NCBI RefSeq assembly: GCF_036670015.1 | Contig: NZ_CP137636.1 | Coordinates: 2,086,501 to 2,150,500 of the forward strand | Direction: 5' to 3' | DNA from: Niallia sp. XMNu-256 | GTDB taxonomy: Bacteria > Bacillota > Bacilli > Bacillales > Cytobacillaceae | DNA length: 64,000 nt | The notes under the pieces: generated by a model | Told to the model about the DNA's origin: nothing | The model's database searches: none | Seen by the model: the letters and a program-made list of their open reading frames with translations, nothing else | Shown here: in pieces, positions 8,150-42,368 of the stretch | Layout of the letters: each line of letters opens with the position of its first letter | How positions within the stretch are numbered: position 1 is the first letter of the stretch | Translations under genes and position numbers: made by a program

Positions 8150-8418
8150 ATAAATGAACGGCAGTGATGAAGAGTAGTACCTTTTCGTGAACACTTTAGA
8201 GAGCTGATGGTTGGTGAGAATCAGTGTGGGATGAAAAGCGAATGGACTTCTGAGCCCCAAACCGAACCGTATGAATGAGTAGGCTTTGGCGAATGTCTCA
8301 TCGTTAAAAGAGACTCGTATTCGAACAATTTGTTCCAATACGATAAAGTGAGCTTTTATTAGCTAATCAAGGTGGCACCACGGGTTTCTCGTCCTTATTT
8401 CGACGGGAAACCCTTTTT
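8150..8418 (+). promoter_or_regulatory. T-box leader 1, Trp (UGG) specifier
   Basis: T-box riboswitch sensing uncharged tRNA. Visible: conserved stem I elements (AGTAGTACC, AGAGAGC, GGTTGGTGAGAA), a specifier loop GAATGGACTT with codon TGG at 8243-8245, the T-box sequence AAGGTGGCACCACGGG (8369-8384), and a terminator pairing GGGTTTCTCGTC (8382-8393) with GACGGGAAACCC (8402-8413) followed by T5. UGG is the Trp codon and the downstream operon is trp. No gene lies between this leader and the second T-box, so the two act in series. Confidence 0.92.
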
Positions 8419-8419
8419 G

Positions 8420-8584
8420 TGTTTTTTTAAAAAGTCTAGTTTATCCATTTTATTACTACTATATTGGTTGGTTTTTGTTTTTCCTAACCAACTAACTGCT
8501 AACCAACTAAATCAATGAACACAGGCTAAATACGCTACAATCTGTAGTAACGCCTGCGTGACCCACATCCTGTGGGTCCAAATC
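8420..8584 (+). repeat. Inter-T-box spacer with partial copy of intergenic repeat
   Basis: The spacer between the two T-boxes first holds a T-rich hairpin (TTGGTTGG pairing with CTAACCAA). From about 8513 it carries a stretch resembling the central part of the repeats at 21983 and 39932: GAACACAGGCTAAATACGC, then AACGCCTGCGTGACC and CATCCTGTGG. I read it as a degenerate, 5'- and 3'-truncated copy. No ORF is supported here. Confidence 0.55.
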
Positions 8585-8589
8585 ATGTA

Positions 8590-8913
8590 AATCGCTTGAG
8601 TAAGAGGAGTACACGAAGAATCTTCGTTACAGAGAGCCGGAATTGGTGTGAACCGGTACAAAGACTTCGCTGGAATGGACTTACGAGAGATAGCCTGAAA
8701 ATTGCAGTACGGCTATACGGAATTCCACCGTTAAAAGGATAGGGTATACATAAAAGCGGAAAGTTAACTAGGAACAAAAATTCCATTTAACTTTGAAAAG
8801 CTTAATTTGTACCCGAAAGAGAGAGTTCATTTCCGAACTCTAAAAGAGGTGGCACCGCGGTACATAATCGTCCTCTATTCACAAGGTTTCTCTTGTGAAT
8901 AGGGGACTTTTTT
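8590..8913 (+). promoter_or_regulatory. T-box leader 2, Trp (UGG) specifier
   Basis: A second complete T-box: AGAGAGCCGGAATTGGTGTG region, specifier loop GAATGGACTT with TGG at 8676-8678, T-box GAGGTGGCACCGCGG (8846-8860), and a terminator stem TCCTCTATTCACAAG (8871-8885) with CTTGTGAATAGGGGA (8892-8906) followed by T6. The trpE ribosome-binding site AAAGGAGGT comes directly after. With T-box 1 it forms a tandem switch that would need two uncharged tRNA-Trp for readthrough. Confidence 0.93.
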
Positions 8914-25751: not shown

Positions 25752-25925
25752 TGTATTTAAAAAAGTCTTCTAAAAGAAGAAGACTTTTGTTTGTACACAT
25801 CCCGCTTCTTCTTATCTCTCAAGTTAATAAACTTGCTGGAATTAGCACCTTTTCAATCATTGAATCGTTGATGGTTGCTGAGGTGTCATCGGGCCATCCC
25901 CTCTGCCTCTCTTGATAAGAAATAA
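25752..25925 (-). promoter_or_regulatory. SAM-I riboswitch (S-box) of metIC
   Basis: Read on the minus strand, the S-box core is complete: CTTATCAAGAGAGGCAGAGG, GATGGCCCGATGACACC, TCAGCAACC, AAGGTGCTAATTCCAGCAA and closing GAGATAAG (P1 between 25914-25919 and 25811-25816). A terminator AAAAGTCTTCT...AGAAGACTTTTTT follows at about 25757-25788. SAM binding terminates transcription. A plausible promoter (TTGAAT, 17 bp, TAAGGT) lies just upstream at about 25945-25975. Confidence 0.95.
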
Positions 25926-38367: not shown

Positions 38368-38553
38368 ATGCCTAGCAAACAACTTGTTGACCTTGTAACA
38401 AGGTTAAAAAAGTCGGGAGTCCAGATTAGCTTTACAAAGCCACGGTCAAAAATGTCGTTGCATCTTTATAACGATATTGTACCATCTACAGATAAAAATG
38501 ATTACTCATCACATGAAAAGACGAAGGAACGTACATTACTGGAGTATATATAG
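38368..38553 (+). CDS. 61-residue hypothetical protein
   Basis: ATG 38368 follows AAAGGAG at good spacing and a terminator follows the stop, so this is a likely gene. Product MPSKQLVDLVTRLKKSGVQI plus a basic-polar tail; no membrane segment. No recognised family. The 270 bp between it and the ABC-F gene start show only AT-rich promoter-like DNA. Confidence 0.6.
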   Translation: MPSKQLVDLVTRLKKSGVQISFTKPRSKMSLHLYNDIVPSTDKNDYSSHEKTKERTLLEYI

Positions 38554-38565
38554 CTCAGGGGCAAG

Positions 38566-38597
38566 ATGGAGGACATCATTGCCCTTTGTTTTTATGA
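38566..38597 (+). terminator. Terminator
   Basis: GGGGCAA (from 38567) and TTGCCC pair around a loop, followed by TTTGTTTTT. Confidence 0.7.
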
Positions 38598-38754
38598 TCA
38601 GATTAAAATTATACTTACATAATTTTCTATTATTTGTCTATACTATTTAAAGATGAAAATAATTACTTCTCATTGTATTCCAAATCTCTAATGAAAATTG
38701 GGGGATAGTGGAACAGGAACATTGCTTTAATACGCATTATAAAAATATATAGGG

Positions 38755-38949
38755 GTGATTAACATATTTTTTAACAGAAAAAACCAAGAGGATAAGCTAG
38801 AAAATATTTTGGAGGATGTAGAGGTTTATTCTTGCAATGACACTGGATGTAACGGGTGGATGAGAAAGGATTTCGCATCAGAAGATTTAAAATGCCCATT
38901 ATGTGGAGATGAAATGACAATTGAGATACGGGAACTACCAAAAATATAA
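38755..38949 (+). CDS. YdjO-type zinc-ribbon (cold-inducible) protein
   Basis: About 61-64 residues with four Cys in two pairs: SCNDTGCNGWMRKDFASED then KCPLCGDEM, closely matching the B. subtilis YdjO pattern (CxxxxCxGWxRKxFAS...CPLC). It is a probable zinc-ribbon protein; YdjO is noted as cold-inducible, function unknown. The start is unusual. GTG 38755 has no ribosome-binding site and itself overlaps AGGGGTGA; that site is correctly placed for an ATA codon at 38764, which would give an FFNRKN-type N-terminus. A non-standard start codon is therefore possible. Confidence 0.8.
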   Translation: MINIFFNRKNQEDKLENILEDVEVYSCNDTGCNGWMRKDFASEDLKCPLCGDEMTIEIRELPKI

Positions 38950-38982
38950 ACTACACTTTTACAGTGTAGTTTTATATTTTTA
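38948..38982. terminator. Terminator after YdjO-like gene
   Basis: AACTACAC (38949-38956) and GTGTAGTT (38964-38971) pair, followed by a T-rich tail. Confidence 0.75.
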
Positions 38983-39037
38983 GTTCTTATTGTAAAAGAT
39001 TAAAATTAAATTTAACAGAATATTCATATTTAAGGCG

Positions 39038-39064
39038 TTTACAATTGAAAAAATGATATATAAT
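39038..39064 (+). promoter_or_regulatory. Promoter of candidate large ncRNA
   Basis: TTTACA at 39038-39043 and TATAAT at 39059-39064 (15-bp spacer), or TAATAA at 39061-39066 with a 17-bp spacer. Expected start near 39071. No ORF with a ribosome-binding site follows for 1.1 kb. Confidence 0.6.
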
Positions 39065-39070
39065 AAAGGT

Positions 39071-39870
39071 GTAGAAAAGAAACAAAGAAAAAAGCTCCAA
39101 CCAAATACTTAACACTTTTGGAGGCTCAACCATATAGTGTTCGTTTCGTATAAGTAAGCGAAAACCTATATTACCTTCAATCTTAAGAGAAACATTGGGT
39201 AAGGTTGAACGAGGTGAGCTCAATAATTTAATATAAGGGAGGAATTCAACCGGGACATAGTGAAAAATTAAGCCTATAACGTTTGTAATATTAAGCAAAA
39301 TACAATGTCACGAAAAAAAATTATTATAACAAAGAAAAGATCCTTTATAAGATCATTGCAAAAGTTATGACTGACTGAAACCATAAAAATTAAGTAACAA
39401 GTTTTGAAACGTTGAAAATCAAAAGGTTCAATAACAAGTAATTAATTGAAAGTTAGAAAGGATAACAGTCACAAATAATAATACACTTAAAAATTGTATA
39501 AGTAAGGTAAGTGTAAGGTTATAAAAATTAACTGACATTTGTGTATGCAAACAATGTTATGCGCAATACGCTTAATAAAATAACTCTTGAACCAAAAATC
39601 ATTTTCACCATAATTAGTGAAAGGGTGTTTCACTAAGGAAAAATGATAGGAATTCTATTTAAGCCCATAACCAAGCAATTATCGAAAGGGAAAATCGATA
39701 ATTATCTTTTAATAAAGAATTGCGAAACAAACACATATTAGCTGAATAGCTAAAGGAAAATGAGATTACTCATTGGAAATGAATGAATGTGTTCGCAATC
39801 AGCTGATGATGGTTGGGTCTCCAAAAGTGTTAATAATTTAAAAAGCTCTTATCCAAGGGGCTTTTTTATT
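39071..39870 (+). ncRNA. Candidate large structured non-coding RNA, about 800 nt
   Basis: Between the promoter and a terminator there is no ORF, yet pairing is extensive. The ends close with 24 contiguous pairs (two G-U): 39110-39133 with 39809-39832. An outer helix can join 39088-39098 to 39857-39867. Inside: 39176-39182/39203-39209; an 8-bp hairpin 39482-39489/39508-39515; 39541-39549/39560-39571; 39598-39605/39640-39647 enclosing a 9-bp hairpin 39614-39622/39628-39636 whose loop GGGTG can pair with CACC at 39606-39609 (pseudoknot); a 9-bp hairpin 39677-39685/39695-39703; a 13-bp interrupted stem 39719-39736/39787-39799 holding two 6-bp tetraloop hairpins (39738-39753 and 39759-39774). Size and layout recall large ornate RNAs (OLE, ROOL, GOLLD), but I cannot assign it to one. 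Confidence 0.7.
39841..39870 (+). terminator. Terminator of the candidate ncRNA
   Basis: AAAAGCTCTT (39841-39850) pairs with AAGGGGCTTTT (39855-39865), then TTATTTTG. The right arm could instead pair with 39088-39098. Confidence 0.7.
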
Positions 39871-39931
39871 TTGTTTTGATTCAGCTTCATTATTCAATAA
39901 ACTCAACCTCTATATAGATACTTTATCGGGT

Positions 39932-40124
39932 TTAACGGCAGTAATCCCCACCTCTTGATTCTAAGAATAGTGAAAGAATATAGCGAATGTACATAAAAAG
40001 CCGTTAGTTGAACACAGACTATATACACCGGCGGCAACGTCTGCATGACCAGCATCCGGTGACCTAAGGCTTTCCATTACTAGGGATGAAAGAAAACCCC
40101 TTACTGATAGAAGGTTCACTTTAT
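39932..40124 (+). repeat. Intergenic two-hairpin repeat, copy B
   Basis: Plus-orientation copy before the PBP gene. Left hairpin TAACGGC (39933-39939) with GCCGTTA (40010-40016). The middle has GTTGAACACAGACTA, CGGCAAC, TGACCAGCATCC and CCTAAGGCTTTCCAT. The right end ACTGATAGAAGGTTCACTTT matches the reverse complement of the copy at 62521. Confidence 0.75.
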
Positions 40125-40193
40125 GTTAAAATCAATTTGGTTTTAAAAAATGTTTATTCATGTAAGTTTGATGCCTAGATGATGAGGAGATGA

Positions 40194-42368
40194 ATGAGAA
40201 GCTTAATGGAAAGAGTAAAACCAATTTTGGATATGTTTAAAAGAAGTTGGAATAAATATAGTCCTCCCGTTAGTAACTGGTTACAAAAGGTGCTCGAAAA
40301 ATTAAGACATTATTGGAAAAAGACCCATATTACACAAATTGTTATTTTAACAGGTTTAGTGTTCCTCCTGTCTGTAATTGTATTTTTTGCCTATACGGCT
40401 TCACAAGCAAATGTGCAATCATTGCAAGAAGGGTTGTCACAAACAACCATTATTCATGATAAAGACGGGGCTGAAGCGACAAAAGTAAATGTTAATCGAA
40501 CAGAGGGAATCGATGTTAAACAATTGCCTGAACATGTGTCAAACGCTGTGATTGCTATAGAAGATCGTCGCTTCGCGGAACATAATGGATTTGACCTTAT
40601 GGGCATTTCAAGAGCATTCTTCAAAAATTTTCTGGCCGGTAAAATTACAGGTGGAGGAAGCACCATCACCCAACAATTAGCTAAAAATGCCCTTCTTACC
40701 CATGAGCAAACCATTAGAAGAAAAGTGGAGGAGTTATTTTTAGCTGTTGAGATCGAAAAACACTACACAAAAGATGAAATATTGAGTATGTATTTAAACC
40801 AAGTTTACTTTGGCAGTGGGGCTTGGGGAATTGACCATGCTTCCATGAAATATTTTAACAAAGAGATTACCGAAGTTACGATTAGTGAAGCAGCCCTTTT
40901 GGCCGGCCTGCTGCAGTCACCATCTGCGCTAAATCCATACAAACATTATGAGAGGGCGATGAATCGAAGAAATGTTGTTCTTGGTACAATGAAGGAACTT
41001 AACATGATTTCTAACGAACAATATTCGCAAGCTGTAAATGAAAAAAATGTATTAGAAGATGGCGGGGAAAATCGTATTAAACGTGAATATCCTTATTATG
41101 TTGATGCGGTAATCGATGAGGCGATCTCACGTTACGGATTAACGCAAGAAGAGATCATGACACGTGGCTATCGAATCTATACAGAAATGGATCAAGATAT
41201 TCAAGCATCATTAGAAAACGTCTATCAGAAAAGAGCGAACTTCCCAACTGGAAAAGGAAATGCTTTAGTCCAAAGCGGTGCAGTATTGCTTGACCCGCAA
41301 ACAGGGGGTGTTCGAGCGTTAGTAGGTGGGCGTGGGGATTATGTGTTTAGAGGATATAACCGAGCCACCCATATTAAGGTACAACCTGGTTCAACGTTAA
41401 AGCCACTTGTCGTTTATACGCCAGCATTAGAGGAAGGGTATCAACCAACCTCCCTTCTAAAAGACGAGAAAATGGGGTTCGGGGATTATGCACCGACTAA
41501 TGTTTCCGGCATCTATCAAGGTGAAGTCCCGATGTATAAAGCCTTAGAACAGTCGATTAATTTATCGGCCGTTTGGTTGCTTAATGAGATCGGTTTAGAC
41601 AAAGGAATTTCCTCTTTAGAAAAGTTTGGAATTTCGATTGAAAAGGAAGACCGTTATTTAGGAATTGCATTAGGTGGGATGAGTAAAGGGGTTTCACCTT
41701 TACAATTAGCAGAAGCTTATTCCACATTTGCAAATAACGGTAAAAGGGAAGGTGCCCATTTAATCACAAGAATTGAAGGGCCAACAGGGAATGTAATGGC
41801 CGAACATAAAGCGAAAACGGTAAAGGTTACATCTAAGAAAGTAGCTAATCAGATGACTTCAATGCTACTTGGGGTAGTTGAAGAGGGAACAGGAAAAGCA
41901 GCGAACATCCCTGGTGTTCAATTAGCAGGAAAAACAGGTTCAACTCAATTACCTTATAATGATATTAAAGGGACGAAAGATCAGTGGTTTGTAGGATATA
42001 CTCCTAATTTAGTTGGGGCAGTATGGCTTGGATATGATAAAACGGATCGAGACCATTACTTAGCTTCAAATAGTACGGAAACAGTCGTCCCATTATTTAG
42101 GACAATCATGGAGCAAGCCGTTCCATTTATTGAAAAAGAAGAGTTTCCAGTTCAATCCATCCAATCTACTATAAGGGAAGAAGAGGCAGAGAAAGAGAAG
42201 GAAAAAGAGAAAGAATCACTTAAGGATCAAACAGAGCGATTGAGAGAAAAAGTGTTAGAAGAATTCCCAAAATGGAAAGAAAGAATTGAGAAAGGTACAG
42301 GAGAGTTAGAGGATTTTGGGAAGAAATTGAAAGACAAATTAGAAGATATGGTCGAAACGCAACATTAA
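40194..42368 (+). CDS. Class A penicillin-binding protein (PBP1A family)
   Basis: 724 residues: cytoplasmic N-terminus rich in Lys/Trp, one membrane anchor (about 47-68), GT51 transglycosylase domain with EDRRFAEHNGFD (Glu123) and GGSTITQQLAKNALL, and a transpeptidase domain with SxxK at Ser400-Lys403 (QPGSTLKPL), SxN at Ser454-Asn456 (SINLSAVW) and KTG at 580-582. The C-terminal 60 residues are a highly charged, probably coiled-coil extension (EEEAEKEKEKEKE). It polymerises and crosslinks peptidoglycan at the outer face of the membrane. The length is near B. subtilis PbpF/PbpG (PBP2c/2d), both sporulation-related, but I cannot choose between them. Confidence 0.92.
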   Translation: MRSLMERVKPILDMFKRSWNKYSPPVSNWLQKVLEKLRHYWKKTHITQIVILTGLVFLLSVIVFFAYTASQANVQSLQEGLSQTTIIHDKDGAEATKVNVNRTEGIDVKQLPEHVSNAVIAIEDRRFAEHNGFDLMGISRAFFKNFLAGKITGGGSTITQQLAKNALLTHEQTIRRKVEELFLAVEIEKHYTKDEILSMYLNQVYFGSGAWGIDHASMKYFNKEITEVTISEAALLAGLLQSPSALNPYKHYERAMNRRNVVLGTMKELNMISNEQYSQAVNEKNVLEDGGENRIKREYPYYVDAVIDEAISRYGLTQEEIMTRGYRIYTEMDQDIQASLENVYQKRANFPTGKGNALVQSGAVLLDPQTGGVRALVGGRGDYVFRGYNRATHIKVQPGSTLKPLVVYTPALEEGYQPTSLLKDEKMGFGDYAPTNVSGIYQGEVPMYKALEQSINLSAVWLLNEIGLDKGISSLEKFGISIEKEDRYLGIALGGMSKGVSPLQLAEAYSTFANNGKREGAHLITRIEGPTGNVMAEHKAKTVKVTSKKVANQMTSMLLGVVEEGTGKAANIPGVQLAGKTGSTQLPYNDIKGTKDQWFVGYTPNLVGAVWLGYDKTDRDHYLASNSTETVVPLFRTIMEQAVPFIEKEEFPVQSIQSTIREEEAEKEKEKEKESLKDQTERLREKVLEEFPKWKERIEKGTGELEDFGKKLKDKLEDMVETQH

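Follow-up and report, generated by a model that had tools for sequence, protein, structure and literature searches.

To our knowledge, few classes of large structured RNA have been described in bacteria, several of them without a function. OLE is a membrane ribonucleoprotein (RNP) with Oap proteins, and 6S RNA, tmRNA, RNase P RNA and SRP RNA are stable stand-alone RNAs whose ends pair. OLE (RF01071) is described as a large structured RNA of the Bacillota, near 600 nt, whose biochemical function is not established, and the large ornate bacterial RNAs ROOL and GOLLD are reported as homo-oligomeric cages (PMC12286853). The raiA motif, or ModT RNA, is likewise a conserved structured RNA of the Bacillota. 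Here we describe a locus in a 64,000-nt stretch of a Niallia genome (the window, to which coordinates refer) whose product is very probably a stand-alone, folded RNA some 760 bases long. We are nearly certain that it belongs to a real, conserved structured RNA class that is missing from Rfam.

None of the described RNAs is matched at the locus. Rfam 15 (4,227 families) contains no family that reaches its gathering score in the stretch 39071–39870. Extending the cmscan to 38500–40400 at E ≤ 10 returned only four weak matches, all below gathering scores; the single one inside the stretch is Plastid-rpl20 (19.8 bits, E 9.9, 39733–39799). The loci of 20 relatives, scanned at E ≤ 0.5, gave only rRNA genes in one flank and a weak MicX match. 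At these thresholds no known Rfam family is found at this locus or at those of the 20 relatives, OLE, ROOL and GOLLD included (the latter two models presumably belong to the scanned release); the raiA/ModT model is unmatched here, and 6S RNA, tmRNA, RNase P RNA and SRP RNA are unmatched in the region. The OLE model also found no match in the whole genome, a result of little weight since the same search was blank in control genomes. The present RNA resembles ROOL and GOLLD in being large, but has no copy in our phage, plasmid and viral-contig searches.

Among papers on large bacterial RNAs, none was found that names such an RNA in its accessible text, and literature searches with the letters of the closing helix turned up, in the accessible text, only papers on unrelated subjects. 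The accessible passages of PMC8632094 and PMC11109978 do not name it either. One of the 24 intergenic small RNAs reported in B. methanolicus (PMC4342826) could be the present RNA. The initial annotation had left the choice between an undescribed class and an unrecognised member of a known one; within reach of Rfam and this literature the former is favoured, and the latter finds no Rfam match. A class can escape Rfam when its conservation is mainly limited to its ends.

Layout of the RNA unit

The proposal of a large structured non-coding RNA at 39071–39870 is borne out by homologues, covariation of the closing helix and the lack of a widely shared reading frame. Folding the stretch gives a minimum free energy (MFE) of −181.2 kcal/mol; relative to 20 dinucleotide shuffles, z is −7.25. 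All features lie on the forward strand, and the letters of the first and of H5 were checked. A −10-like element, TATAAT (39059–39064), marks the RNA's own putative promoter, with a start predicted near 39071. The 24-nt 5′ strand of helix P1 (39110–39133, inner and largely invariant half GGAGGCUCAACCAU) faces the P1 3′ strand AUGGUUGGGUCUCCAAAAGUGUUA (39809–39832). Inside it, the P2 5′ strand (39137–39150; GUGUU, a bulged C and GUUUCGUA) is joined in the MFE fold to the P2 3′ strand (39721–39734; UGCGAAAC, A and AACAC), and P2 encloses a variable domain (39151–39720). The same 5′ strand can form a local hairpin, H5 (39140–39162), in which UUCGUUU (39140–39146) pairs with AAGCGAA (39156–39162) and which excludes P2. 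Hairpin P3 (39736–39808; 39736–39745 with 39799–39808 in the MFE fold) sits between P2 and P1, with a hairpin at the matching place in relatives. A terminator-like hairpin and T-run, AAAAAGCUC..GGGGCUUUUUU, follow at 39840–39867.

Relatives across the Bacillales

When the 800 nt were searched as DNA, 18 of 61 genomes, the own genome among them, showed matches, mostly near both ends, so the homologues that were asked for exist. Pieces of a second, diverged copy lie in the same genome (C1:2575131–2575792, minus strand). A pattern for the 5′ end then retrieved 79 stretches from the genome collection. Fifty-seven have a 3′ strand with at least 19 of 23 pairs, and nine more carry a typical P1 5′ strand in records that end before the 3′ part. 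The other 13, without a 3′ strand or a typical P1, belong to unrelated groups such as Chloroflexota and Pseudomonadota, as chance predicts. The 66 typical stretches belong to Neobacillus, Mesobacillus, Robertmurraya, Pseudoneobacillus, Niallia, Cytobacillus, Fervidibacillus and Bacillus species; one record bears the label Paenibacillus and another the label Chryseobacterium. The last, a contig of Chryseobacterium sp. ISL-80 (L066), has a typical 5′ end in a record that stops short of the 3′ part, and is probably mislabelled or contaminated.

Spread was measured with two models, R1 (44 5′ ends) and R2 (64 diverse 5′ ends). The resulting genome counts are lower bounds, weak matches being lost when more than 40 genomes are searched together. 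R1 matched 106 of 193 genomes of the RNA's own family, a family of Bacillaceae-type bacteria in which it is common. It also matched 56 of 397 genomes of the order (11 of the own family and 45 in 15 other families) and 6 of 398 of the class (four of the own order, including the weakest, G055, and two of family f64). At class level R2 matched 6 of 398 genomes: three from the own family, two from f64, and G646, whose match is weak and partial. At phylum level it matched 2 of 398, namely the own genome and one of its family. Leaving the partial G646 aside, matches of either model outside the order are confined to f64. The two f64 genomes appear to carry two copies each, and at three of the four places a forward and a reverse hit lie about 270–350 nt apart. 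Many Bacillus-like bacteria carry relatives in which the ends are conserved and the middle varies. For later counts we assembled 134 copies, 133 of them distinct (L165 and L192 are identical): 105 rows minus nine on the reverse strand, giving 96, plus 38 of 39 test copies described below. L222 was left out, probably being a short copy read on the wrong strand.

The RNA was found here in genome records alone. There was no match in 72,556 plasmid records; 50,697 phage records gave only one 61-nt AT-rich interior match in one phage (two records), and the three pattern hits in viral contigs all lack the 3′ motif, so a phage or plasmid origin finds no support in these records. The plasmid and phage results also speak against a mobile element bounded by terminal inverted repeats, or an RNA of the retron type, readings to which we give hardly any credence. 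The ends of the RNA are indeed inverted repeats, with two copies in the own genome and three in tandem in two others, but the two arms diverge as DNA wherever a G–U pair joins them in the RNA, and no transposase or reverse transcriptase is among the named neighbour families (most neighbour clusters are unnamed).

Helix P1 is conserved and covaries

The closing helix was predicted as 24 unbroken base pairs, and this is exact: 24 of 24 pairs are standard, two of them G–U. Among helices whose arms lie 100 nt or more apart, the longest has 25 pairs, against a maximum of 16 in 60 mononucleotide shuffles. The pairing holds in relatives chosen without regard to it. R1 covers the 5′ strand alone, and with it we retrieved 40 further regions, of which L194 was left out; two of the 39 hits tested (G308 and G055) were already known. 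A complementary 3′ strand lies 155–1,000 nt downstream in 39 of 39 tested hits, with 19–23 of 23 pairs; shuffled 5′ strands gave 13–19 pairs over 1,950 trials, five of which reached 19.

Covariation, the check suggested for this helix, was assessed against a custom-written tree-based null in the manner of R-scape, first on 67 distinct cores and later on 80 distinct P1s from 130 copies (4 of the 134, namely L184, L186, L206 and L227, lack a placeable anchor). In the P1 alignment 1,757 of 1,840 cells are paired, a count that leans towards pairing because the initial 3′ strands had to reach 20 of 23 pairs to be taken in; the 38 copies from the 5′-model test entered without that filter. The seven top-ranked of 903 column pairs are all P1 pairs. 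Six of the 23 P1 pairs covary at E < 0.05 (best 6 × 10^−5) when the 23 alone are considered, and two do so over all 903 (0.0025, the floor of the procedure, and 0.022).

This covariation lies mainly in the outer half of P1, and most of the inner half is nearly invariant. On the 5′ strand, counted from 0, positions 10, 12 and 14–21 hardly vary and position 13 is a purine. One U–G wobble is kept in 68 of the 80 distinct P1s and one G–U in 52. At position 11 an A–C opposition occurs in 26 of 80, flanked by nearly invariant pairs, and appears to be a tolerated mismatch. A double-stranded element that varies so little points to a specific partner; the conserved half could also serve tertiary contacts or base pairing rather than a protein.

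Two other readings of P1 can be judged here. P1 might be a mere processing stalk at which RNase III or Mini-III trims the ends and leaves the interior as the product. Ribosomal RNA precursors carry long end-to-end helices of this kind. We consider this improbable, as the inner half is conserved in sequence beyond what pairing needs and the interior, the supposed product, is the most variable part. Somewhat less doubtful, if still unlikely, is a base-pairing regulatory RNA whose interior single strands or unclosed P1 strands pair with mRNAs. Its appearance as a stand-alone unit by sequence would suit this, as would a GGAGG, like a ribosome-binding site, in the inner P1 5′ strand of this copy. 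The P1 motif GGAGRCYCAACCA has 17 matches in the own genome, and the one-mismatch sites outnumber those of the reversed pattern (13 versus 6). Against it, the four exact matches are the strands of the two RNA copies only, with no exact target site elsewhere in that genome, and both P1 strands are conserved and paired. Core segments compared with one rRNA operon matched or paired no better than shuffles (p ≥ 0.11), so rRNA mimicry or pairing, tried as a separate candidate, gave no signal.

Promoter-like and terminator-like flanks, and changing neighbours

The promoter and terminator read in this stretch recur as patterns in most of the 134 copies. TATAAT, TATACT or TATAAA stands within 90 nt before P1 in 116 of 134, compared with 60 of 134 in shuffled upstream stretches of 120 nt, which are longer than the real ones. 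A TGTA occupies fixed places downstream of the −10-like element in about seven-tenths of 132 scored copies. On the 3′ side, 120 of 134 copies have a hairpin and T-run no more than 75 nt from P1, compared with 3 of 134 after shuffling. By sequence pattern, most copies would have their own promoter and terminator.

An outer helix, 39088–39098 with 39857–39867, had been noted as a competitor of the terminator hairpin that might link folding to termination. The helix is present, with 11 of 11 pairs. Leader–terminator pairing of at least nine pairs is hardly enriched in the family (80 of 129 copies, versus 68 of 129 with shuffled leaders), and we take the helix as probably private to this copy. The link to termination is not supported, and the outer helix was dropped as an antiterminator on the same count.

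Neighbouring genes differ by genus: YdjO (PF14169) and a class A penicillin-binding protein (PBP) here, YitT (PF02588) in Neobacillus and SplA (PF11132) in Mesobacillus. The scan was extended to partial sequences of ten further neighbour clusters. Three are without a family; those named include CsgA, MHYT, the erythromycin-esterase family, a methyltransferase, an EmrE-type protein and a molybdopterin oxidoreductase, the last cluster being common to Mesobacillus-type copies and the own genome's second copy. One neighbour cluster has a peptidase M3 N-terminal match slightly below cut-off. Two genomes of family f7 carry three tandem copies each (L173, 5560–7908; L174, 4536–6853). The genus-dependent neighbours, the RNA's own promoter-like and terminator-like flanks and the tandem copies together give the look of a trans-acting RNA rather than an untranslated region. 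All three argue against a cis element of the YdjO-like gene upstream or the class A PBP gene downstream. A YdjO-type gene does lie near eight copies in the own genus, Niallia, Robertmurraya and Pseudoneobacillus, but we regard such an element as very improbable. In a separate arrangement, one copy (L188, 4489–5344) comes shortly after the 5S rRNA gene of an rRNA operon.

A variable interior without a shared reading frame

P1 spans 213–1,008 nt from end to end (median 562; 134 copies), and the interior about 170 to 960 nt. The short members, at 213 nt, suit structure work. Both the sequence and the helices of the interior are mostly lineage-specific. Folding was gauged in single copies: for 19 interiors of at most 700 nt, sampled as every seventh of 130 copies, z against mononucleotide shuffles runs from −1.2 to −9.6. 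A few elements recur. The word AATGAGTC occurs in 28 of 134 interiors from several genera (permuted words: mean 1.4, maximum 17), located 153–406 nt from the P1 3′ end, and many copies have a GGAATTTGAATTCC-type hairpin before P2.

The lack of a credible open reading frame, remarked on at the outset, holds up. Forward-strand frames of at least 30 amino acids (aa) that overlap the stretch measure 30, 31 and 32 aa; those on the reverse strand measure 36, 40, 48 and 103 aa, the longest (38987–39298) extending past the stretch. Among frames of at least 20 aa in homologous copies, none of the peptides, grouped into 60 clusters of copies, is seen again in more than one further cluster, which weighs against the RNA being a short-protein messenger or having a dual function. 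The best case for such a messenger is GTG/ATG/TTG-TTC-GTT-CCG, placed 10–12 nt after GGAGG in many own-family copies. Its stops differ in place and its start is lost in other lineages; the mini-ORF GTG-TTC-GTT-CCG is not conserved, and a coding role seems highly unlikely.

Competing pairings in the core

P2 consists in the MFE fold of 39137–39141/39730–39734 and 39143–39150/39721–39728, and joins GUGUU-C-GUUCCG on the 5′ side to CGGAAC-A-AACAC on the 3′ side. Some copies change both sides (AUGUU/AGCAU, UUGUU/AGCAA and GUAUU/AAUAC), and the first pair varies between GC, AT and TA. Many far relatives have different sequences that still pair at a similar position, such as GAGUUCGUUUCC/GGAAACGAAUUC or GUUAGUUCCGU/ACGGAGCUGAC. 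Others among the far relatives have a best distal helix that is short or lies at a different position, and in several copies the P2 3′ strand was missed by the motif or matched only with three errors.

Single-sequence tests were run on 129 copies, with 6.5 expected by chance at p ≤ 0.05. P2 reached this level in 43 (86 fall short), H5 in 50 (79 fall short) and both together in only 16. An H5 partner with seven of seven pairs, taken as the best of a 32-nt window, is found in 79 of 92 scored copies. When the first 75 nt are folded alone, the P2 5′ strand pairs locally in 130 of 130 copies; in full-length MFE folds its partner is distal in 78 of 130 and local in 52. Over all pairs of the 67 distinct cores, the best P2 pair has E = 1.7 and the best H5 pair 7.4, neither significant, and an unproposed pair, 24–34 (E = 7.3), ranks fifth in the same run. 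Scaled to the 41 proposed pairs, the best values become about 0.03 for P2 and 0.11 for H5.

P2, P3 and, as a maintained alternative, H5 are supported but more weakly, and the evidence that two mutually exclusive folds, H5 or P2, recur in the family is likewise weaker. We read H5/P2 as a strand exchange that is probably maintained; an element that only guides folding would give the same picture. Should the conservation of the 5′ strand have some other cause, either pairing could be incidental. The two competing folds are testable by mutation. On the 3′ side of P3, GUGUUCGC (39789–39796) is a partial repeat of the P2 5′ strand that also occurs in own-genus copies, and its pairing with the P2 3′ strand could provide a third alternative.

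A proposed mode of action

We infer the following course of events. Transcription would begin at the RNA's own promoter and stop at its own terminator. During synthesis the P2 5′ strand would first fold locally as H5. Once the 3′ end exists, the strand could swap from H5 to P2 and P1 could close, the two RNA ends pairing as P1 and the helices P1, P2 and P3 meeting in a three-way junction, with P2 enclosing the large, mostly lineage-specific domain. A protein or other partner may then dock on the closed core, chiefly at the nearly invariant inner P1, and the RNA would act in trans, scaffolding an RNP that changes state with the H5/P2 exchange. That the locus represents an undescribed stand-alone RNA class of the Bacilli, working as a P1-docked RNP scaffold with an H5/P2 change of state, strikes us as about an even proposition, tilting slightly towards true. 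More tentatively, and short of an even chance, it may be a bistable class of large RNA in which a protein recognises P1 sequence-specifically as double-stranded RNA, the H5/P2 exchange sets the state across families of the Bacilli and the fast-evolving interior carries a lineage-specific task.

The window contains further structured RNAs. A SAM riboswitch lies on the reverse strand at 25809–25921. On the forward strand, a Bacillaceae-1 RNA (RF01690, 67.4 bits; 8510–8576) sits between T-box leaders at 8155–8399 and 8586–8878, and a weak second Bacillaceae-1-like match (40003–40062, 28.3 bits against a gathering score of 35) falls between the terminator of the present RNA and the class A PBP gene.
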